DNA of 64,000 nt, taken from Onthophagus taurus (Eukaryota; Arthropoda; Insecta; Coleoptera; Scarabaeidae). The stretch lies in NCBI RefSeq assembly GCF_036711975.1, contig NC_091976.1:19282001-19346000 (forward strand). The letters run 5' to 3'. Below the pieces are notes generated by a model. The model was not told the origin of the DNA. It ran no database searches and was given only the letters and a program-made list of their open reading frames with translations. Positions within the stretch are counted from its first letter, which is position 1. The number at the start of each line of letters is the position of its first letter. The translations under genes were made by a program, and so were the position numbers. Below are positions 6,248-60,025 of this stretch, in pieces.

Positions 6248-8044
6248 TCAATCTTGCCCAGTTTTTGGGTCGATTACATCAACAGTTTTCAATTTTACTT
6301 GTGACTGCGGCTTAGCATTATCGATATTAACACTTTCTTCTCCCGACTTGATTTCTGGTTTTTTCTCGCCATCAATTTCCAATTTTTGTTTCAATATAGG
6401 CCCCGAATATTTTAAATTAAGCATATTTTTTATAGTTTCGTCAATCTCTTCCAATCTAACGGCATAAATCGATGCTTTTTTAGCTTTGTACTTTTTCAAA
6501 ATAGATTTGTACATATTAACATCATCATTATCGTTTAGGATTTCGCTCCTAAAATCAAAAAAATTATTTTAGAATTATATTTTTGTGGAAACTTACTCTT
6601 TTTTCATTTTCTCAAGATAAACTTGAACTTCATCTAAAGTATTAAATGGAACATTTTCTTTTAAAAATTGGTAAAATTGCGCCGATGCGTGTAATAAAGT
6701 AGCAAACTCGTCATCTAAATCTTTAATTTCGGTTTCAATGTCTTCGCGTTCTTGTTTTGCTTTGTTGAGATGTCTTTCATTTTCGCTCAATTTGGCTTTC
6801 ACATCCGGATCTTCAACTTTTTTTTCTAAAACGACCGTATTTGTCGTATCTCGTTCATTAAATTCTGTACTTATATCTTCATTGTAATTAACACCCAGAA
6901 ATCCACCAATTTTTGTTGTTGTTGTAGTTTGATGGGTGCTTACTCTGGTTAACTAAAATATTAATATAATAAGATATAATAAAATATTTTTATAAACTGC
7001 TTTTACTTGTTCTGCTGGTACTTTTACATCAACCATTAACTCGCCTTCTAACTGTTTTTTTGTACTTGAAATGACTTCGGTTTTTATGGTAGCGGTATTA
7101 AGTCGTATCCAGTTTTTTCTTTGCGTAGTTAAACAAGAAGCGATTGTTGACGATAATCGACGTATTAAACGTTTAGCCTCGTTAACCGATAATAATCCTT
7201 TGATTTGTCGTGGCGGTGCTGATTTAATATATTTTATCATTCTACAAAGACAAAAAAGTTTTTAAAATTCCAAGCTCTAAAAATATTTTTTTAAATACCT
7301 TTTAACTTCTTCAGATGATTTTTTAAAACTATCCTCAAAATTAGAAACTTGATTATGAGCAAATTTAACTTGGGCTGATTTCGCAGCAATATACCTAAAC
7401 CAATCACTTTCAATGCAAAAAGTATTTTGATAATCAAAAGGAACGGGATTCCTTCTGGTTATATCCACCGATTTTAAAACTTTTTCTAAAGGTATTTGAG
7501 TATCACCTGGTGTATAAAAACTCGACCGCCCATTTGAAAATATGAAAATAACGTTTTTACGAATGTTTTCATCCAATTGACCCAAAATAGTTTTGATACA
7601 ATACTCAAAAATCACGCTTAATCGTGAATTATTCGGCTTCATCATTATACAAATTCCGTGTAAATATTCCATTTCTGATATAAATTCTAAAACTTTTTCG
7701 ACGTTTTTGTAATCGGTCTCAATACCTTGGGTATCTCCTAATCCGGGAGTATCGATTATATTTAAAATTGAACCATCTTGTAAATCAATACGATGCATTT
7801 GTGGTCGTTTCGTTGCCGATTTTCCCACTTGATGCTCTTCATTACTATCATGATCAACCACAATCGTTCGTTCTGTAAAATCGTCATCCATTACTGTAAA
7901 TCTTACCCCGATGGAATATTTTAATTGTTTTATATCCGATAATTCATTATAAGCGATGTAATTTAAAACGGTGTTTATAAATGTTGACTTCCCAACACCT
8001 GTTTCACCCAATAAAAGAACATTATATATTTTTTGGGACTCCAT
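6248..8044 (-). CDS. GIMAP/AIG1-like P-loop GTPase with coiled-coil tail, copy 1
   Basis: Four exons: 8044-7299, 7241-7007, 6952-6597 and 6548-6248; all junctions are GT-AG and keep frame, giving about 545 residues. The G domain (about residues 1-248) has the P-loop GETGVGKS at 13-20 and the Walker B/G3 box DTPGLGD at 98-104. A second conserved block is KPNNSR at 136-141. NGRSSFYTPGDT at 171-182 stands where the G4 box would be, and no NKxD is visible. After the first intron comes a basic helical region (MIKYIK...QIKGLLSVNEAKR), then a charged coiled coil ending FLKENVPF...LEKMKKE, then a Lys/Glu-rich tail. The family is related to AIG1/GIMAP GTPases; its substrate is presumably GTP. Cellular role is unknown; an immune or stress role is inference from the family. 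Start chosen at MESQK because copy 2 shares it and a TATA box lies about 75 bases upstream. Confidence 0.85.
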
Positions 8045-8114
8045 TTTCTTTACTTTTGTTTATAAGTTTGCAATGGTAATGTAAAAACTAAAAAGAAAAT
8101 ATTTGAAATAGGTT

Positions 8115-8180
8115 CTATATAAATCCTTTTAAAGAAAAACAAACGTTAGTTCAGATATAGAATTGTGGTTTATTTAATAA
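8115..8180 (-). promoter_or_regulatory. promoter of GTPase copy 1: TATA box and Runx-like site
   Basis: Reading the minus strand toward the gene, a Runx-type word AAACCACA (TGTGGTTT on plus, 8164-8171) lies about 120 bases upstream of the ATG and a TATA-like TTTATATAG at 8115-8123. Between them is TTTTTCTTTAAAA. The same order is found upstream of copy 2, and weak upstream similarity extends about 250 bases. Transcription start is expected near 8085. Confidence 0.5.
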
Positions 8181-8939
8181 ATAATAAATTTAAAAAATAG
8201 GCAATTCTGGTCAATAACAATTTGCAACAATAATAACAAGTTGATAACGGTTATATCTTTTACTTTAATAAAAACAAGTTATTTGAGAATGTTTCCTTAT
8301 TTTTTATGAAAAATATTTTTTGTTTTTGAGAAAAATGTTTACATGTTCTAATAGAAAAACAAGGTAGTATTTTGATTATAACATGACAACCTCTCAATTT
8401 CGGAATTGGGAACGTTTTAGAAAAAACTTTTAGTATAAAAGTTGTTACAAATTTTATTCTTAACGATTGCTTTTTTACACTTTTTCTCTCAGATGTATAA
8501 GTACCTCGAATACCTCGAATTATTGGAGATGTACACTAATTTTTCGTTTATTTGTTTTATTTTGTACGTAAATTTAATTTACGGTAATAATTTGAGATCT
8601 CGGATATCTAGATTAATGTTATTGATTTTTTTTATTAATAAACAATTTTTACATTTTTTTCAAAAACTTTCTAATGTAAGGGTACAAACATTTTACGCCA
8701 TCGTAATGAGGAAAGTAATCTCTATCAAATGAGCCTAACGAAAGAATACATTGCCATTTAAAATAATTTAAGTATTATTCGTTACTCATTTGTTTTCTGA
8801 ATTAAAAACAATTGAATGCAGTCTTATTATGGCAAATAAAATATTAAACAACCTTTGTATAAAATGTTTTTTTTATAAAGTTGATAATTACCAAGATATA
8901 TGCTATATTCCATACATAATGGGCACCCTGTATATACCT

Positions 8940-9290
8940 CAAGATCCTCTACCTTCCTACCCCCATTCCACACCTCTTCGCCTCCTCGCCCCCATCAGCT
9001 CCCTCATCCATCTTTTGCCCTCGCCCATCTCTCCCAAAATCTGCTTCCTGTCCATTGCCTCCTCCCTTAGCTCACTACACCCTCTCAGCATGTGTTCCAG
9101 CGTCTCCCAATCCTCTCCACACAACCTACACCACCTCTCCACATCATCCGCCCAGTACATATTCCCCCTCACCTCATTGCCACAGCTGAATCTGGCAACC
9201 AATCTCTTCCCTTCATCATCCCTCTCCATCAACAAATACTTTGGCAGTTCCTCTATCACTATCTCCTTATCTCCTTTCCACGAACCCATA
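8940..9290 (-). pseudogene. 3' end of a non-LTR retrotransposon (C-terminal zinc-binding region)
   Basis: The minus-strand frame contains PKYLLMERDDEGKRL, then RFSCGNEVRGNMYW, then CRLCGEDWETLEHMLRGCSE, the CxxC...H...C region found at the C terminus of a non-LTR retrotransposon family common in insect genomes. It ends in a Glu/Arg-rich tail (MRELMGARRRR). No stop interrupts the 110 codons, so the fragment is fairly young, but the rest of ORF2 is absent. A fragment from the middle of a similar element lies at 33230-33765. Base composition (GC-rich, purine-rich) differs sharply from the flanks. Confidence 0.7.
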
Positions 9291-9299
9291 TCCCAGGAA

Positions 9300-10990
9300 C
9301 GTGTACTCTTTCACATGCTCTATCTCTCTTCCAACACAACCCCAACCCTAAATATTTCTATCCTCTCCCACATTCCTTGGTCCACTACCACATAATCTAT
9401 CACCGATGCATCCGACTTATGACCACATAACATAGGTAATTTTTGTGTTAGTTTCTTGTAACATTTTCGCGTTTTAGCGAAATTGGAATTATACTTTTAG
9501 TTGTATGCTTCGCAAAGAGAGCTTCCTAAGTTTTTCGATCTGAGAAGCGAAAATTTTCTGGTACTATTACTACCTCCGTATTGTTTGCAGATTGAAAAAC
9601 TTCCGTCTTGGTTCATTGTAGCCTGGAGAATCTCTTGGTATAACTTCGTCCACTCTTCTCATATTGGAAACTTTATCTTTAATCATCACTTGAAAGTACC
9701 TATTCATCAGAAATCAAACTGTTCTTATCAAAATTCCTTCCAAAAGGCTCACTTCTATAATACTTTTCAGCAAGCCATTTTGGCAGACGGAATCGTAAGC
9801 ATTTTTGATGTATAATAACCCCTCCATAGTATACTAACTTTTTTCTGGGTAAGGTCCAAAGTGCTAGTGAGATTCGTAACGTGGTGAATCCAACTGATTT
9901 TTTGGGAGTAGGCCTTTTCTTCACGATTTTACAACATATTTCTTTCTGTAATTATCGATAACTCGCTCACCGCACTGATTTGAGTCCTCATCTTCATTAG
10001 AAGCTTTCACAATTGGTTTTTCGGCTCAATTTCTTTTCTTTGCAGTATTTTTCTCTCTTCCTTCCATAAAATTCAATTTATTTTCCATTGTTAACCGGAG
10101 CACCTTTGTTTCCGTAATTGCTTTCATAAAAAAATTAAAAACCGAAACTGTTACAAGCTGCTAGATACTATCAATGGTAGACTAGATAGTGATGGCGGAA
10201 GACTTCTTACTGCTTACAGAAGACTTGATACTGTTGAGAGATAACTAGATACAGCTTGCAAAAACTAGATACTGCAATCAGAAGTCAAAATATTCCGAAT
10301 GGAAGATTCCTCCTTATTACACCCTGCTGGTAGACCAACCATAGCATTAAAGTACCCAGCAATTATTTGGTATACATGAGATGTATACCCAGTAATTGCA
10401 AATAATAATACAACAACATAAATATCGTATCTTTATTCATCTTAATTATTTCAAATCTCTTTATGGATTCCAAAAAGGTTCTCCCTTATTCATACCCTCT
10501 GTATACCATAATATGATATTCAAGCCCAAACGTTTTCAACTCTATGATCTATCTCCCCCATGATAACAATCAAGAATTCTTCTCTCACTCACCCAGACAC
10601 CTCAATGTCATAATTTACGTTGTATTACGTTTTGTGCAAGTTTTACAAACTCAAAGTAACAGTAACTTAAGATCCCTCGTTTAAGTTCTTTTTCCAAACC
10701 TATTTTATTACGTCTTGTTCCGTCTTTAATTGCATTTACTTCCTTGATTGATTTTCCTTCCACAATTACCTTGTGAATTTTGCATAAAATTTTAACTAAA
10801 TGTCTCAAGAATAATGCAATGCGTGAACAAAATTTGTATTATTAAACCGTTGATTTAATAAATGATTTCCAAACATTTATGTTCAATTTAGATAGGAATA
10901 CATAATGTTTATATTATGTTAGTAATCCAAGTGCTTTTGAAGGAGGTTTATATTTTTTTTTTAATAAACAATAGTTAGGGCAAAACTTTT
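9300..10990. other. intergenic repeats between GTPase copies 1 and 2, no gene
   Basis: No gene recognised. The stretch 10140-10300 holds several degenerate copies of CTAGATACTG/CTAGATAGTG, suggesting a decayed short repeat. Minus frames at 9700-9924 and 10608-10808 match nothing I recognise and have no splice context. Confidence 0.4.
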
Positions 10991-10999
10991 TAAGGCAAT

Positions 11000-11005
11000 T
11001 TTATT
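11000..11005 (-). promoter_or_regulatory. polyadenylation signal of GTPase copy 2
   Basis: AATAAA on the minus strand about 65 bases beyond the copy 2 stop codon, a normal distance for a short insect 3' UTR. Confidence 0.55.
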
Positions 11006-11067
11006 TTCTAAATTACATTAATCTTTTTACAAACAATATATTATTGTGTACTTTAATAACTTTAAAC

Positions 11068-13036
11068 TCACTCGGGTAAAGAAACTTTTGGTTTAGAACC
11101 CGAAAATAATATGCATCTGGTATTCTCCGGATTTTGCTCAGTTTTTGGTTCAACCACATCATCACTTTGCTTTTGCTCAGACTTTTTGATTGTATGATGA
11201 ACTTCAATATCTTCGGACCTCGTTTCTAACGCTTGTTTATTATCAACTTCCAATTCTCCCTGCGCTTTTGGTTCAGGTTTTTTTACGTTAATTGTATCTT
11301 TCTCGTTTTGTTCAGTTTCCGTTTTTTTCTCATCATCAATTCCTAATTTTTTTTTCAATGAAGGCCCCGAATGTTTTAAATTAAACAATTTTTTGATGGT
11401 TTCATCGATATCTTTCAGAGTAACACCAATAATAGATTTCTTTTTAACCTCATACTTTTTCAAAATATTGTGGTACATAGTAACATTTTGTTTATCATTG
11501 AGAGTTTCGCTCCTAAAATGAAAGAAAAGTAATTGTTTTTGTATTTTATGTTGGTTGAACCTCACTCTTTTTTCATCTTCTCAAGGTGATCTTGAATTTC
11601 ATCCAAAGGGTTAAATGGAACGTTTTCTTTTAAAAATATGTTAAATTGAGCCGCTGCATGTAATAATGTAATAAACTCGTGATTTAAACCGTCAATGTCG
11701 TCCTGTTCTTGTTTTGCTTTGTTTGTATCTGTTTCATTTTCATTCTGATTGGTTTTCACATCAGGATCTTCATCAATTTTTACTTCTAAGGTGATTGTCG
11801 GTTCAACACCTTGCTCATAAAATTTTGATTGATGGTTATGATTACAATTTCTATCAGAAGATCCACCAAGTTTTGTTGTTGCTGGAGATTGATGGGTTCT
11901 TACTCTTGGTGGCTAAAATATTATTTTTTTATTTTTTAAAATAAAAGAAAATTTAAAAAATATATTAATCCTACTTGATTTCCTGGTAATTTTCTTCCAG
12001 GCTTCAAATTTTCTTCGGGTTTTTTATTGGTATTTGAATTATTTTTCTTAACGGCGTTAAGTTGTCTCCAGTTTTTTCTTTGAGTTGCTAAATTAGATGC
12101 GATCGTTGCTGACAATCGACGTATTATACGTTTAGCCTCGTTAATCGATAACAATCCTTTAATTTGTTGTGGAGCTAACGATTTAATATATTTTATCATT
12201 CTATAAAAAATTAATTAATTTCTATTATTTTTTAATTTTACTTTATGTTTATTTAAAAATGTTCAATAATCAAAAGTGTTTTCTTAATACCTTATAACTT
12301 CTTCCGATGATTTTTTAAAACTATCCTCAAAATTAGAAACTTGATTATCGTTAAACTTAACCTGAGCTGATTTAGCAGCAACATATCTGAACCAATCACT
12401 TTCAACACAAAAAGTATTTTGTTTATTAAAAGGAATAGGATTTCTGCTTGTTGTATCCGCCGATTTTAAAACTTCTTCTAAAGGTATTTGAGTATCTCCT
12501 GGTGTATAAAAACTCGAACGCCCATTTGAGAAAAGAAAAATTATATTTTTACGAATATTTTCATCCAGTTGACCCAAAATAGTTGTGAGGCAATACTCAA
12601 ATATCACGCTTAATCTTGAATTGTTTGGTTTCAGCATTATACAGATTCCGTGTAAATATTCCATTTCTGATATAAATTCTAAGACTTTTTCGAAGTTTTT
12701 GTGGTCATTTTCAATACCTTGATTATCTCCTAATCCAGGGGTATCAATTATATTTAAAATTGAACCATCTGGTAAAGGAATACGATGGTTTTGTGCTTGT
12801 ATCGTAGCAGATTTTCCAGCATAACGCCCTTCATTGCTATCTTCACCAATCACAATTCTTCTTTCTGTAAAATCATCATCCATTAATGTAAATCTTACCC
12901 CGACTGAATGTTTTAACTGGTTTATATCTGATAATTTATCGTAAGCCAGGTAATTAAAAATGGTGTTTATAAATGTTGACTTGCCAACACCGGTTTCACC
13001 CACCAAAAGAACATTATATGTTTTTTGGGATTCCAT
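11068..13036 (-). CDS. GIMAP/AIG1-like P-loop GTPase with coiled-coil tail, copy 2
   Basis: Four exons: 13036-12291, 12200-11975, 11912-11566 and 11512-11068, all GT-AG and in frame, giving about 587 residues. The intron positions and phases equal those of copy 1. The first exon has exactly the same length (746 nt), and the G domain is about four-fifths identical by eye. Motifs: GETGVGKS, DTPGLGD, KPNNSR and NGRSSFYTPGDT. The tail keeps the MIKYIK...QIKGLLSINEAKR start and the FLKENVPFNPLDE...LEKMKKE block. The final exon is longer and rich in Lys, Glu and Pro, with repeated EPK/EQ words, ending GSKPKVSLPE. The duplication included the promoter. Likely cytosolic; no signal peptide or membrane segment is evident. 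Function is not known. Confidence 0.85.
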
Positions 13037-13110
13037 TTATCTGTACTTTTTTGTTCGTAAGTTTACAATATCACTGAAATGAACTGAAATGAAAACATTT
13101 CAAATGGAAT

Positions 13111-13160
13111 TTTATACCATTTTTTTAAAGAAAAATAAATGATTGTGGTTTATTTGATAA
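13111..13160 (-). promoter_or_regulatory. promoter of GTPase copy 2: TATA box and Runx-like site
   Basis: On the minus strand GGTATAAAATTCC places a TATA box at 13111-13116, about 75 bases upstream of the ATG. TGTGGTTT (plus, 13144-13151) lies in a 19-bp word, ATTGTGGTTTATTTGATAA, that differs from the copy 1 word by one base. Confidence 0.55.
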
Positions 13161-13169
13161 TGGTAAATT

Positions 13170-14140
13170 TATAACAAAATAGGAAATCACGCAAATAACA
13201 GTTTGTTATCGTTTATATTTTTTTATTCTAAATAAACAAAGTTATTCGAGAATTTTCCTTATTTTGAATAAATTCTTTATTATTTATGTTTTTGAAAAAA
13301 ATATTTACACATCTTTATGATTACAATGAATTGAATGATTTATATTTGTTAAATAACGTCCATAATCTTGTGCCTAGGAAGCAGAGCAAATCCATATTTT
13401 CTTCATATATGATCTTATGTATTCATTTAGGCGGTTTAATTGTCTTTTCTACATAGACTTTTCCTCCAGTTTTAAATAACGTTTCTTTAGTCTTGAACTA
13501 ATGGTTTTTTCTTCTTTCCTTTTCTTGTAACATCTTCATTTTTTATGCTGAGTACACATTTTCATTTGTACTTTATATTTTGTAATCATATCTTAAATAT
13601 TTTTTATGTCAGAATAGAAATCCATAAATCACTATAACGTATCAGTGTACAAATATATCAAGTTCATCTGTAAGACATGTCTATAAAATTCCAACGTGAT
13701 GTACAAGATAGTCCAAAAAGTATACGCTAAGCTCTAGATATCACGGAGATCCCTTCAGGCAACTTTAGCTACATTGTATATATATCCACATAAGGTCTAG
13801 ATCGTACAAATATTGAACCTGATAGATGAGTTGCAATTGAAGGATTATACCATTACATCACAATATGATAATAGACTCTAATACTATAAGATATGTGTCC
13901 TCGAATTTATAGAAAATTAACTTGCTCACTTTGAAAATGAACAATGTATTTAAAACAACAAAGACCTCCTAAAATTCCGAAAAATACAACACATAATTAC
14001 AGCCATTAAATTCGTTCAAAGAAACCTGGTACGAACCAGTATAGAGAAGTTCAGGTTTGAGAGAAAACCAGTCAATTAGATTGGGTTGGGTTAGATTATC
14101 TGTATAGAAATAAACTTCAAAGGTTAAATCGGAAGCTCGC
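13170..14140. other. intergenic stretch upstream of copy 2, nothing recognised
   Basis: About the first 130 bases resemble the upstream region of copy 1 (words such as TTATTCGAGAATTTTCCTTATTTT compared with TTATTTGAGAATGTTTCCTTATTTT), so they belong to the duplicated block. Beyond that I see no gene and no clear repeat. Confidence 0.4.
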
Positions 14141-14600
14141 AATAAGGAGTATCATGGCGAAACTATCTCGGCGGCGAGTTCTGATTGGATTGCCACCTCT
14201 GAACTGGCTGGCTGATGAAAAATATCAAATCTATAGAGGAGGTAGAAAGTATAGAACCGAAGCCAGAGAGCAGGTGCTCACTAAATTACAGGATAAGATG
14301 GGAAGGCTATATGGGTTCTGCCGGACAGCTGATAATAAGCATCAAGTAATGGAACGATCTACGTGATCCGAAGATGAACGGGCCATGGAGTGTTTGGGAG
14401 TTATCTGAAGATCAAAAAAGCGAGAGAAAAGCTAAAGCTGAAGATATCTGCGGATGTTAACATATGGTGGCACTAATGTTGGAAACTGAGACATAATAGT
14501 AGTGGCTGATTGCTTGAGGAAGATTATCAGTAAGAAGGACTAGGATGAAAGGCGGCGCCTAAAGCCCGAAGAGGCATTTTCATATAGGAGACGCGGAAAG
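14140..14600 (+). pseudogene. R1-like non-LTR retrotransposon 3' fragment
   Basis: A plus-strand frame reads VLIGLPPLNWLADEKYQIY, matching the conserved G(I/L)PPxxLLAxE motif that follows the reverse transcriptase in R1-clade elements, then a region with REQVLTKLQDK. After frameshifts and stops the sequence continues with VADCLRKIISKKD and DERRRLKPEEAF, the usual extreme C terminus of such elements. It is broken and lacks RT and endonuclease. Confidence 0.6.
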
Positions 14601-14639
14601 AAGAGGAATTTTTAGTGGGTTGGGTTGGATACAATCAAC

Positions 14640-16697
14640 TCTATGTGAAACTGTAAAATCGCTAGTTGATAATAGTGTTGTCAAAGGTCAGGTGGTGATA
14701 AGCAAAGTAGGAAAATCCAATATACTAAGTTTTATACTTTGCTGAATAGAAAACACAAACTCATTCCTACATCTAAAACCCAGAATCCTCCAAATCGCCG
14801 AAGACTAACAATGCTGCCACAATCTGATCATCGCTCATAAGCAATTCACGAACATAAGAAGTTTAATATAAATTTCGTCTTACTTAGAAGCCGGACATGT
14901 AGATTTTATAATTCCGTACAACAAAAGTTTGCAAATTCTTATAACCTCAATGACACTGCCTCAATGTACTTACATCAACTATGAAGATATTGCACGATAG
15001 GGTAAAATGATGTTATATCCATGCTATTACATGGTACTTACATGGCACCTTGTCCTTTTCAGTGGCGGATCTTCTTGATAACACAAACATTACATCATGT
15101 TGCACTTCCTGTACAAGATATTTCATTGTTAAGATATTTAATGACGTAACGTATTCTTTTCCAATTAGGGACCACTTGTTTCTTCCGTGCGTATATCCTT
15201 ACTTGAAAATACGGCATAATTACAAAAATACCACAGCATTGGGATAAATTATCACAAAGTCATCACTATATAAATTCGTTAGCATGTACCAGCGAAAATT
15301 GACAACTGATATTTTTTTAAGAACTTTAAAGAAGTCTCATCGAATGTATTGGATTCAGGAATGTAATCAATGTATGACAGTGATAAATATTTACGTTAGC
15401 GTTTGAAGACAATGCACTCCTAGAAACAAAACTGTCTAAATGGTCGAACAATGTAGAATATGGAATATGTGGCGATCTGAATGAAACCAAAAGTTCCTCT
15501 GTAAAATGGTTTAATTCCAAATAAATTTGTTGCATTAGAAACAAAGCAAAAGACATGTGTTGGTCCAGTTGTAAAAGAATAATCAAACAACAACAAATGC
15601 AAAAACCTCTTGAAAAGGTCTAATCATCGTACTAGATTACTAGACGCATAGACAGAAGTAAAGGCAGTATTCAAAAATACCAGTTCTAAATTCCTCAGGT
15701 TACGACGTAATTCTATACACAGCATTAAAACTTCTCCCGCGCAAAATCATTCTAATCTGCCTATTAATAGTGCTGGAAGTTAAACAAGAGGGGTTTGCTT
15801 AGACGTTTCGTTATGCTGCCACTTATCAGCTGCTATTTCTTATTGAACATTGCGCCGAAGAGTTCCATTCTCATGAATTCACTACCACTGCGATAGTGAA
15901 TTCTGAATGTTCCATAAGCACTCTAACTACCATGACACCACGCATTGTTGTAAAAAGTACACCAACCTGGTCAACGATCGATCCACAATACAAACCATGA
16001 CAGCAGATATTCCATACTTGTCGTCTTACTACATAATACATTTACTTAGGACTTTCTTGAACTCGGAATAAACCTTAACGTAGCCATCTGTAAGAAATTG
16101 TCTCCACTTTTGCATTTAACCAGAAAGTTTGCCAAGGTAAATACGCAACAGGTACTCTGCTAATTCTGCATCTTCTATCTTTATATTCTTTACATTCCTC
16201 AAAAAGAAAGCTACTGTCTACTCTTCTTTTTTACTAAGCAAGATTTTCACCCTGTAGTATCCAAATAAAGTGATATCACAGAAAAATCGTATGTTCTGGC
16301 CTGTCGATATCTTCTTTATATTTCTTTTTATGATATGTACTAAGCACATCATATCGTTTTAGGTAATGATCCATTACTCTCTATTATCATTTAAATATCG
16401 CTAAATACAAAGTAATCGATAATCGAATTTTGTATACACTCTGTTTATAGTACTTGAACGATTATTCCGCATTGATTGGTTAGAAAATAAATCAAATTTT
16501 GTTAAACGTCCACTCTCGAATAAGAAATATAGAAACATTTAATAAACATAAAATTACTTTAATTTTGTTTAGGTTCGGATTCACTCTATTTTTAGGAAAG
16601 TTTTGTAAATGAAAAATAAATTTCTTCTAAGATTTAGATGTTTAATTTGTTTTGCAAAAAAACATTTAAAAAAAAATTACTTATTTCAAAACTAATT
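14640..16697. other. intergenic stretch between copies 2 and 3, nothing recognised
   Basis: No gene supported. Short frames at 15050-15247 and 15326-15602 are not recognisable. The final few hundred bases should contain the 3' UTR of GTPase copy 3, but I see no clear AATAAA on the minus strand. Confidence 0.4.
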
Positions 16698-18417
16698 TTA
16701 ATTTATGGTTGTATCATTTGCTAAAACGTCTAATTCATAGTAATATTTCAAAATGTCTCCAAAATGTTTCTGTTTTAATAATTCCGTTTTAACGTCGTCA
16801 ACATCTTGAGGAGTAACATTTGAAACATTAGCGATTTCATCTAGATAGGTTGATAAAAGGTTTTCATAGCTTTCCAATCGTCGCGGATTTATTTTAATTT
16901 CTCTCTCCCTGAAAAAAGAAATAATTATTAAATGTGTAAAATAAGCGATAAGTTTTCTTACTTTTTAATCAATGTGGTTAAATCATTTTTAAATATATCA
17001 GCCCCCATTAGAAAAGCATTTTCTTTTAAGAATACCGTAAATTTAACGAGGGCAGTCAAAATAAGATTTTCCTCCTTTTCGAGATCTTCAAGACTCTTTT
17101 TTAGTTGCTGTTTGATTTCAACCATCGTTGCTTTTGCTCGTTCTTTTTCATCAATCGTTGATTTAATATTACTAGCTTCCACGTACAAAACGTAAGGGGT
17201 CTGAATAGTAGTCACAACTATTTTACGCCTTGTAGTTGTTTTCACGCCAACCGAAATGAATGGAGGTGTCCATGACAAATCCAGATAAGGCTTTATTGTA
17301 CCTTTTTTATGCTCAACATCTCTCTTCTCTTCTATTTTATGTTTAACAACTGGAATATATAAATAGGGTTTTAATTTTTCTAAATTATTTTCATTTTCAT
17401 TTATTTTTCGTTCGTGTTCAATTAAAATATCTTTCGCATCTTCGCATTTTTCCATTACGTCTATCATTGGTATTGCTAATTTAAAAATTATTCTTCGAGA
17501 ATCATTTATTGATAATGTATCTTTCATTGAAGCTGGTGATAAAGTTTTAATGTAGTCGATCATTCTAATAAAATTAATTAAAAATATTAAAAAAGAAATT
17601 ATTAATATTTTTTTATTTACCTCTTAATTGAATTTGAAGATATTTGATAACTTTCTTGGTAATCTTTTTCAACATTATCATTAATCTTAATTCCTTTATT
17701 TTTAATAGCTAAATATCGTATGGATTCGTTATCGATGCAAAAAATGTTGTCACGATCAAATTTTATTTTGTGTGGTTCAGATGCAATTCCTTCGAGAAGT
17801 ATTTGTAGAGGTAAAAAGGTGTCTCCGGGGGTAAAAAAGCTCGATCTAGCGTTTGTAAAGATGAAAACAAAATTCTCAAAGACTTTCTTATCCAATTTGG
17901 AAAATAAATGCTTCATGCAATGTTCAAAAAGCACCGTAATTCGAGAATTATTTGGTTTTACCAGTACACAAAAAGCGTTTACATGATTCAATTCCCCCAA
18001 TAGAGCTAAAATCTTTTCCATGTTTTCTTCGTCGAATTTTAAACCTCGAGTATCGCCAATCCCTGGTGTATCAATTAGTCTTATCTTCAAATTTTTTTCT
18101 GGTATTTCTAATAAGTAACTTTTCGGATGTTGAGTTGATGAAACGCCCGGATCTGTTTTTTCATTTTCACTTTTACCGATTTGTATAACTTTTTCTTGAA
18201 AATTTTCATCCATCACCGTAAATTTTATGGGTACAGGAGCCAATAATTCTCCATTAGAAGCCGCAATCAACGTATCGTATTTTAAATAATTTGCGAAAGC
18301 ATTCACAAAAGTTGATTTACCTACACCTGTTTCACCAAAAAGAACAATATTTAATATATTTTTATCGCCGAGGGACACTTTATTCTCAGATTCAGACATT
18401 GTGTAACAATCGTTCAA
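16698..18417 (-). CDS. GIMAP/AIG1-like P-loop GTPase with coiled-coil tail, copy 3 (divergent)
   Basis: Three exons: 18417-17621, 17564-16962 and 16908-16698, all GT-AG and in frame, giving about 536 residues (about 530 if the second Met, MSESEN, is used). Motifs: GETGVGKS, DTPGIGDTRG, KPNNSR and NARSSFFTPGDT, so the domain order equals that of copies 1 and 2. The first intron sits at the same place and phase, directly after the G domain. The second exon (603 nt) covers what copies 1 and 2 split into two exons, so an intron was lost here or gained in the other lineage. The middle region starts MIDYIKTLSP..., contains a long predicted coiled coil and ends with the FLKEN block. The tail is short and different. 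G-domain similarity to copies 1 and 2 is clearly lower than between those two. Confidence 0.85.
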
Positions 18418-25659: not shown

Positions 25660-41763
<16,104 letters not shown>

Positions 41764-57143: not shown

Positions 57144-57985
57144 TCAATTGAATAGGACATGTTCAATAGGATTGAGGTCAGGACTTAACGCCGGGCATTC
57201 CATGATCTGAATTCCACGTTCTTGCAAAAAGTTTCTGGTAATGCCGGCGGTATGCGACTTTGCATTGTTCTGCATTAGGATGAAATTTTGAACGACCCCA
57301 TATGAAGCAGGCACAACATGGTTCTCCAAGATATTTTCGATGTAATTCATGGCATTTAGTATACCAGGAACAACAACAAGATCAGTTTTGTTGTCTATAG
57401 TGATTCCAGCCCAAACCATAACAGATCCCCGACCAAATCTATCCACTTCCTGTATAGTAACGGCTGCGTAGCGTTCACCAGGACGTTTATATACACGTAC
57501 TCGACCGTCGTAACGAGTTAATCGAAATCTGGACTCGTCTGTAAACAGTATAGGCGTCCAGTGACGAAGTTGCCAATCTCTGTGATCCAGAGCAAAACTC
57601 ATTCGCGACGCTTTGTGTTGCTGCGTAAGGCGTCGTTCGCAGACAGGTCTTCTAGGTTTCAAAATCGCTTCTTTTAATCTGTTTCTAACAGTTTGATCAG
57701 AAATTTCTATTCAATGTGCTCGTCTTAGGTGGTTTAGGAGGTCTCGTGCTGTGGCAGTACGCGTACGTAGACAGGAAAGGTCAAGAAATCGGTCTTAATT
57801 TGGAGTAGTTTTTCGATTTCGCCCTTGTCCAGCTCTTCTAAAATGTTGGCCAGTCTTTCGAAACCGATTCCATAAACGCTGAATAACAGAAGGGGAAACT
57901 CGAAGATCCGTGCTAACATGTCGAGTGGCCATGCTGAATAAGGACGACAGCACGAGCAACTTGCACTTTACTAAGATGCCTCATG
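57144..57985 (-). pseudogene. dead Tc1-like transposase
   Basis: The minus strand starts MRHLSKVQVARAVVLIQHG at 57985, passes several stops in the HTH region (VIQRLWNRFRKTGQHFRRAG; DQTVRNRLKEAILKPRRPVC), then stays open from 57662: PILFTDESRFRLTRYDGRVR (first catalytic Asp), GSVMVWAGITIDNKTDLVVV, and FILMQNNAKSHTA where the second catalytic Asp (DNA) has become Asn, then CPALSPDLNPIEH with the third catalytic residue (Glu). It is cut off at 57144, a few residues after the Glu. It is a DD34E Tc1 type. The right end near 58200 has a GCAGGGTATA word. Confidence 0.85.
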
Positions 57986-58897: not shown

Positions 58898-60025
58898 TCA
58901 ATTATCCAAATCAACATTATCCAATTTTTTACTACAACTTTTAAAATGTACATCCCTATTTCCTTTTCGAGCAAATTTTTTATGGCACAACAAACACTCA
59001 TAACGTTTTTCACCACTATGCACTGCTAAGTGTCGATTTAAATCACTTTTGGTAGCAAACCTTTTACTACACATATGACAAAACCAAGGTTTTTCTCCGG
59101 TATGTATTCTTAAATGTTGATCTAACTTACTTTGTATAACAAAACATTTCCCGCAATACGAACACATTAATCTCTTATAATCCAAGCTGTGAGCTATTCG
59201 CATATGATAAGTGTATTGTCCACGAACTGGAAATCCTCTTGCACAAATTTCACAAATAAAAGGGCGATCTTTTGAGTGAACCGAACGGATATGAGTTGTA
59301 ACTGAACTGCTTTGTGTGAATGATTTTGGACAAAATTTACATTTATAAGGACGTTCGCCAGTATGAACACGCATATGTTCGGTTAATTGAAATTTTAAAT
59401 TCTTACGAACACCACAAACATTGCATTCAAAGTATCTTTGGTTATTTTCATGATGACAATTACGGAGATGTTTGTTTAAAACAGTTTTGTACAAGAATTT
59501 TTTATTGCATTTCTGGCATTCATAACCAACACAAGCATGTTTTTTATGAGCAGTTAAATTGATACGGTTTGAAAATTGTTTGAAACAAATTTGACATGTG
59601 TATTTTGAATATGATTTGGTTTTATCAGATTCATCATTTGTATTAATGTTTAAATTATCTATACTAGGTTTCAAGTCATTTACTTCTTCGTATAAATCAT
59701 AATTTGATTCAATAATAATTGTTTCAAAATCTGTTTTGCAAGAAAGAGCTTCGTTAACTTTTTCTTTCAGTTCTTCTTCCGTTTTTAGACAATTGTTTTT
59801 AAAATTAACTGCTGTTAATAACAGATCTAAACATTTTGAACAGATTACCGGGTTCGAAGTTAAATTAACATCCTAAAATTACACAAATATGAATAAGTAG
59901 TGTGAATTCGTTAAAATCTTTCTTACCAATTCAGGTAAAATAAAATTAATATCATTTAAATACACACTCATATCTTCATAACATTCTTCAGGACTGTTTA
60001 AACACAATCTACAAGCCTCAGTCAT
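58898..60025 (-). CDS. ZAD-C2H2 zinc-finger protein
   Basis: Two exons, 60025-59927 and 59872-58898, GT-AG, in frame, about 357 residues. The N-terminal ZAD dimerisation domain has its cysteine pairs split by the intron: CRLCL in exon 1 and ICSKCLDLL in exon 2. Then an acidic linker, then eight fingers in a row. Fingers 1 and 8 are C2HC variants ending in Cys instead of the last His; fingers 3-7 are classical, with linkers TGERPYK, SKDRPF, TGEKPWF and SGEKRYE. Such proteins are insect-specific, sequence-specific DNA-binding nuclear factors; target and biology of this one are not known. The stop codon is followed after only one base by an AATAAA signal (58896-58891), so the 3' UTR should be very short. 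Confidence 0.9.

Follow-up and report, generated by a model that had tools for sequence, protein, structure and literature searches.

An AIG1-like gene trio in a beetle genome

A 2013 survey reported AIG1 to be missing from every ecdysozoan genome that could be searched at the time, Drosophila and Caenorhabditis included (PMC3723955), and a later paper likewise gives AIG1 as absent from Drosophila and C. elegans (PMC7053062). A paper from 2019 describes an AIG1-like group in Halicephalobus mephisto, other chromadorean nematodes and Rhizophagus irregularis, notes uncharacterised matches in arthropods (in one sentence) and in Giardia, and sets the group apart from the human and plant GIMAP cluster in its tree (PMC6872716). 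Here we analyse three neighbouring genes of this kind (g1, g2 and g3, the trio) in a window of 64,000 nucleotides, C11:19282001-19346000, of the 291 Mb genome of the beetle Onthophagus taurus; trio coordinates are given within this window. The trio is real and belongs to a known superfamily, in which it appears to have been little described; tail inserts differ among its paralogs. Judged by its sequences it is AIG1-like and not GIMAP proper, being distantly related to the GIMAPs, which are immune GTPases.

Compared by description, the Halicephalobus/Rhizophagus group is like the trio: it is called AIG1 at low identity, it stands apart from GIMAPs in that paper's tree, it is expanded in one species, and the paper also gives matches of 250–300 amino acids (aa) from arthropods (PMC6872716). 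An earlier note on this DNA, made from the letters alone, had called such an insect array poorly described, which seems fair given the 2013 report of absence from Ecdysozoa (PMC3723955) and the single arthropod sentence (PMC6872716). Among the titles and abstract openings listed, all from openly licensed papers in PubMed Central (PMC), no paper dealt with such genes in insects, which does not prove that none exists.

The minus strand of the window carries three intact genes between 18399 and 6248, each with its ATG, open frames and stop. In our splicing, which is a prediction from the sequence, all introns are GT-AG, measure 48–90 bp and keep the frame at every exon–intron junction. The models are g1 (8044-6248, minus strand; four exons, 545 aa), g2 (13036-11068, minus strand; four exons, 587 aa) and g3 (18399-16698, minus strand; three exons, 530 aa), the last having one exon fewer because an intron inside the tail is absent from it. 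The earlier note had proposed three complete same-strand genes of 545, 587 and about 536 residues; completeness, strand and the first two lengths stood, and the third gave way to 530. It had also seen P-loop GTPase motifs and a tail in every copy, and GETGVGKS and DTPG(L/I)GD are indeed present in g1, g2 and g3. All three genes have a same-phase intron just 3' of the GTPase domain (between ..R and M..). The proteins g1 and g2 are 68% identical, and g1 and g3 31–32%. The features, all on the minus strand, are as follows.

7299..8044, minus: g1 exon 1, AIG1-like GTPase domain, residues 1-249 (splice model and Pfam match)
7007..7241, minus: g1 exon 2, first part of the tail and start of the variable region (splice model, alignment, Ka/Ks)
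6597..6952, minus: g1 exon 3, remainder of the variable region, then a helical part (splice model, alignment)
6248..6548, minus: g1 exon 4, C-terminal part and stop (splice model, alignment)
6803..7096, minus: g1 variable region, residues 298-377, split by intron 6953-7006 (Ka/Ks to g2 of 1.03)
12291..13036, minus: g2 exon 1, AIG1-like GTPase domain (splice model and Pfam match)
11975..12200, minus: g2 exon 2, tail (splice model)
11566..11912, minus: g2 exon 3, tail (splice model)
11068..11512, minus: g2 exon 4, C-terminal part and an extension absent from g1 and g3 (splice model, alignment)
17621..18399, minus: g3 exon 1, AIG1-like GTPase domain (splice model and Pfam match)
16962..17564, minus: g3 exon 2, tail, with modelled helices at ~17509-17375 and ~17164-17006 and low-confidence strands at ~17260-17201 (splice model, structure model)
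16698..16908, minus: g3 exon 3, C-terminal part and stop (splice model, alignment)

The family extends beyond the window to at least eight GTPase domains at five loci: the trio, C11:31.92M, C2:23.76M, C2:10.72M and two copies at C7:27.92-27.94M. Queries with g3, C2:23.76M, g1 and C2:10.72M agreed on these eight, and all such counts are lower bounds. Searching the genome with the AIG1 model returned two matches, both within these known members.

Family placement and the conserved motifs

The gathering cut-off of Pfam AIG1 (PF04548; 27 bits) was passed by all three proteins (g1 39.5, g2 37.3 and g3 29.5 bits), and no other Pfam family scored higher in g1 or g2. Its best stretches cover positions 32-127, 20-127 and 46-127 of 212 (82–108 positions) and exclude the P-loop; g1 and g2 each have a second AIG1 stretch. 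The cut-off of MMR_HSR1 (21.9 bits) was also passed by all three (32.4, 32.2 and 31.2 bits), the best stretch in each being 21 residues of the P-loop. When the eight family domains were scanned singly, two of them as rows without the P-loop exon, AIG1 was the sole Pfam family found in 8/8 (E <= 0.1), with MMR_HSR1 in 7/8. Two of five scanned paralog GTPase frames passed the AIG1 cut-off, and two of the three that failed lack the P-loop exon. The Pfam search that the earlier note had looked to for placement put AIG1 over its cut-off in all three proteins and MMR_HSR1 as well, the latter with the higher score for g3. Scores alone would thus still allow an ordinary housekeeping GTPase (MMR_HSR1, RsgA or septin); we set this reading aside because the best MMR_HSR1 stretch is the P-loop and AIG1 alone was matched by all eight domains.

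Septins and the Toc GTPases are the other relatives that recur. The Septin model (PF00735; cut-off 26.2 bits) was passed by g1 (27.2) and g2 (36.1), with g3 (21.0) below it; its matches cover only 71–88 of 280 positions and do not run along the whole domain. In NCBIfam, general GTPase models lead (best E 2.4e-5), and the Toc34 and Toc159 models appear at E ~0.001 in 3/8 and 2/8 members, far below their cut-offs. With the immunity-related GTPases (IRG; PF05049, IIGP) the likeness is of the P-loop only: matches are limited to 25–30 residues around it, g3 reached 22.9 bits over 30 residues against a cut-off of 24, and for g1 and g2 at full length the Pfam scan listed no IIGP match.

A profile of the eight domains, compared with solved structures, found septins (5.9e-5), Midasin (1.1e-4), GIMAP7 (5.5e-4) and GIMAP4 (8.7e-4). 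With the P-loop removed, GIMAP4 came first at E 0.035, a signal that we count as weak because septins follow at 0.2–0.3 along with a poly(A)-binding protein that is unrelated. In the GIMAP4 alignment the switch-I Thr and DTPG are paired, as is, with low posterior, the Arg of the GRYT box. Taken together, the profile evidence favours a place in the septin/Toc/AIG1 branch, without placing the family inside GIMAP.

Structure searches gave nothing finer. The GTPase model, built from the three window sequences, is poor (mean predicted local distance difference test, pLDDT, of 47). In Foldseek its top seven rows were Toc34, septins and GIMAP7, at template modelling (TM) scores of only 0.3–0.4. VIA gave generic P-loop GTPases, with Rab and Arl chains above septins, and no branch was assigned from structure for this reason; the absence of IRG and GIMAP from the 50 VIA rows listed proves nothing. 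The predicted fold is that of a P-loop GTPase.

The G motifs are largely kept. The G1 P-loop GxxGxGKS/T is present in 6/6 of the members that were aligned with their P-loop exon, the switch-I Thr in 8/8, and the G3 DTPG in 3/3 of the trio and 7/8 of the family, C7:27.93M reading DTPS. The P-loop exons of the two C7 copies read GETGVGKS and GAPGVGKS. The G4 consensus is (T/N)(K/R)xD, ending in Asp; the family reads SNGRS, TNARS, TNSRG, TNSRA, TRTRG or THGRM at the presumed site, with the Asp absent in 8/8. The G4 of the family may be shifted relative to this site, because the GIMAP4 alignment that places it ends at the first G4 residue and a conserved Asp lies ~8–9 residues beyond. An Arg in a box between G3 and G4, where we take the arginine finger of GIMAP to lie, is present in 8/8 members (R141 in g1). 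Arginine fingers have been reported for the paraseptin GTPases Toc34/Toc159 and AIG1/GIMAP (PMC11238149).

The trio might instead be true orthologs of vertebrate and plant GIMAPs, with GIMAP function. All three do pass the AIG1 cut-off, both GIMAP4 and GIMAP7 turn up among the solved structures, and the family shares with GIMAP/IAN/AIG1 proteins (PF04548) the P-loop, switch-I Thr, DTPG, the Arg before G4, a helical tail and tandem copies, though its tail is long and has an insert between the modelled helices. We consider true orthology very unlikely, since the family lacks the Asp at the presumed G4 and matches the AIG1 profile in part only; the published tree, made without the trio sequences, also parts AIG1-like proteins from GIMAPs (PMC6872716). 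Nor is there a strongly hydrophobic stretch (highest 19-residue hydropathy 1.46), unlike in membrane-anchored GIMAPs, although some GIMAPs are unanchored too (PMC8201404). The label GIMAP/AIG1-like in the earlier note holds for its AIG1 half; for GIMAP in the strict sense it is, on these grounds, not supported.

Divergence among copies and the tail insert

Between g1 and g2, the ratio of nonsynonymous to synonymous divergence (Ka/Ks) was 0.36 overall (bootstrap 0.27–0.46) at a Ks of 0.52. By region it was 0.21 (0.13–0.34) in the GTPase domain, 0.26 (0.09–0.78) in helix 1, 1.03 (about 0.6–1.9) in the insert region, 0.38 (0.16–1.10) in helix 2 and 0.31 (0.14–0.58) at the C-terminus. These regional values were unchanged under four alignment settings, the region bounds having been chosen after sliding windows. 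Ka in the tail was 2.9 times that of the GTPase domain (reached by 0/5000 permutations), and Ka/Ks 2.3 times (7/5000). The overall ratio of 0.36 and the 0.21 of exon 1 indicate that the reading of g1 and g2 is not due to chance. The GTPase engine is constrained, and the insert region in mid-tail changes fastest in amino acids; its ratio near 1 fits relaxed constraint and selection for change alike.

A tree of the eight domains divides them, with support 95/94, into one set of g1, g2, C11:31.92M and C2:23.76M and another of g3, C2:10.72M and the two C7 copies. Because the tree parts g1 and g2 from g3, the trio does not form a clade: by their sequences, g3 is an old neighbour and g1 and g2 a later pair. 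By tail and gene structure g3 groups with g1 and g2, but the GTPase tree puts it among the Cys-rich copies. An older third copy and a g1–g2 pair had both been foreseen, and both are borne out; 'recent', as applied to that pair, is only relative because Ks is 0.52.

Tails come in different types. Those of C2:10.72M, C7:27.92M and C7:5.307M hold 9–11 Cys and 10–11 His, with Cx4C, CHDPC, C(A/S)AM and HMH in 3/3 and CxxCxC in 2/3. The tails of the trio, C11:31.92M, C2:23.76M and C7:27.93M hold 1–3 Cys, and from C7:27.93M the whole tail insert is missing. No Pfam family was over its cut-off in the tails or the Cys/His-rich part in the Pfam scan. The Cys/His-rich insert of the paralogs aligns, in a gap-rich part of the alignment, between the two modelled helices of g3. 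Since g3 shares with C2:10.72M the LYIPV just before the insert position, the insert was probably lost or replaced in the trio type, a direction that we infer.

Five single-sequence models were made of g3 exon 2. In the best of them (mean pLDDT 52, against 28.5–35.7 for the rest) a strand pair lies between two long helices, and the helices have blocks at pLDDT ~60–75. The earlier note had predicted a helical/coiled-coil tail, and the two long helices agree with this; given the strand pair, which has low pLDDT, coiled coil may not be all there is to the tail.

Some copies depart from the one-head, one-tail plan. At C7:5.307M lies a tail-only copy of the Cys/His-rich type (L025:5999-7338, plus strand), with no GTPase domain within the 9.5 kb examined. 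At C7:27.92-27.94M a single exon encodes the C-terminal part of one copy, continues into the P-loop of the copy that follows and reaches a GTAAGT donor, so the two copies appear, from this exon reading, to be fused into a two-headed protein (L016:5313-5867, L015:2710-4098, L016:6829-7812 and L017:2579-2800, all minus strand). The C2:10.72M copy runs on into a long Asn/Gln/Pro-rich, low-complexity C-terminus unseen in the trio (L014:7040-8001, plus strand).

Decay or lack of expression of the duplicates could be suspected from the damaged-looking relatives elsewhere, namely the tail-only copy at C7:5.307M and the DTPS for DTPG in C7:27.93M. For the trio this is most improbable, given its open frames, its consistent splice sites and the Ka/Ks of 0.21 (0.13–0.34) in the GTPase domain.

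A stronger rival keeps the same GTPase family and makes it non-immune. The proteins would then serve as a scaffold or a switch in trafficking, much as septins or Toc proteins do, while duplication lets the copy number drift and constraint on the insert region is relaxed. The insert Ka/Ks, near 1 and not clearly above it, agrees with this, as does the lack of kB-like motifs upstream of the trio (among six genes, one had an upstream match, C2:23.76M). The authors of the nematode work present the AIG1 expansion in their species as pointing to adaptation to its warm habitat, not to infection (PMC6872716). We regard such a role as a serious possibility, somewhat short of even. Defence families more usually show patchy distribution, tandem, partial and fused copies, and varied inserts; by that analogy, the patchy published distribution, tandem copies, tail-only copy, fused copy and differing inserts of this family would speak against a non-immune role.

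A proposed dimerising switch and its setting

Our best explanation, put forward tentatively, is that these GTPases switch by dimerising, use an arginine finger and carry a tail whose tip changes fast, most likely in the service of cell-autonomous defence or a stress response. On this view the trio would belong to a divergent AIG1-like family among the 'paraseptin' GTPases (septin/Toc34/AIG1). Binding of GTP would bring two G domains together face to face, and hydrolysis would be aided in trans by an arginine finger, for which R141 of g1 is the candidate. The helical tail would double back into a hairpin whose tip bears a small module for binding a partner or target. In some paralogs this tip is Cys/His-rich and probably metal-binding; a shorter segment replaces it in the trio. 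Duplication and fast change of the tip would then yield paralogs with one engine and different targets.

The arginine-finger dimer is plausible for the trio because the Arg is invariant: arginine fingers are reported for paraseptins (PMC11238149), GTP-dependent dimers for GIMAP2 (PMC8201404), and GIMAP7 reportedly stimulates hydrolysis through dimerisation and an arginine finger (PMC8066113). Among openly licensed PMC papers we found none on GIMAP7 Arg103. By analogy with these proteins, we think it slightly more likely than not that the scheme holds here. Architecture, copy-number behaviour and rate of change also point to a tail tip that contacts a target, for which we see a nearly even chance, and to a defence role, which we would advance with more reserve. 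Weighing against the proposal are the higher score of MMR_HSR1 than of AIG1 in g3 (31.2 versus 29.5 bits), the low posterior of the pairing between the family Arg and the Arg of the GIMAP4 GRYT box, and the low confidence of the g3 tail strands (pLDDT ~30–36, in a stretch under 50).

An origin by transfer was also considered and rejected. No relatives were found in viral contigs, where 80 motif-bearing stretches yielded none that was confirmed. Bacterial contigs gave at least one relative among 595 candidate stretches, in a Nostoc contig and at 21% identity, which makes no case for transfer. This Nostoc relative is an open reading frame of 292 aa that reads by eye as a GTPase followed by repeats (L020:2953-3831, plus strand).

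The genome holds 134 matches to the odorant-receptor family 7tm_6 and ten to Coleoptericin, all ten over the cut-off; each family had matches in 0/14 control genomes, at least 12 of them prokaryotic. 7tm_6 is not known outside insects, nor Coleoptericin outside beetles; the former matches thus mark the host as an insect, and the latter suggest a beetle. The Coleoptericin antimicrobial peptide genes lie in clusters at C7:31367123-31450021 (six matches) and C7:2235617-2249779 (four matches). The telomere pattern TCAGG had no matches, which is uninformative. Elsewhere in the window are an open frame with a TPR_12 match (34917-35480, plus strand), presumably resembling kinesin light chain, transposase remnants of the DDE_Tnp_1_7 and Tc1/Tc3 types (39655-40191 and 57144-57710, both minus strand), and an exon of a C2H2 zinc-finger protein (58898-59872, minus strand).

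A wider view, which we hold to be speculative and rather unlikely, is that beetles have a diversifying set of GTPases for cell-autonomous defence. A conserved dimerising head would there be joined to exchangeable recognition tips on a helical hairpin, Cys/His-rich and metal-binding in some paralogs and fast-changing in others, and one form would be fused and two-headed. Intact and constrained AIG1-like insect genes with varied tail inserts offer a system in which a defence role for this branch of GTPases, and the target of the tail, may be tested.

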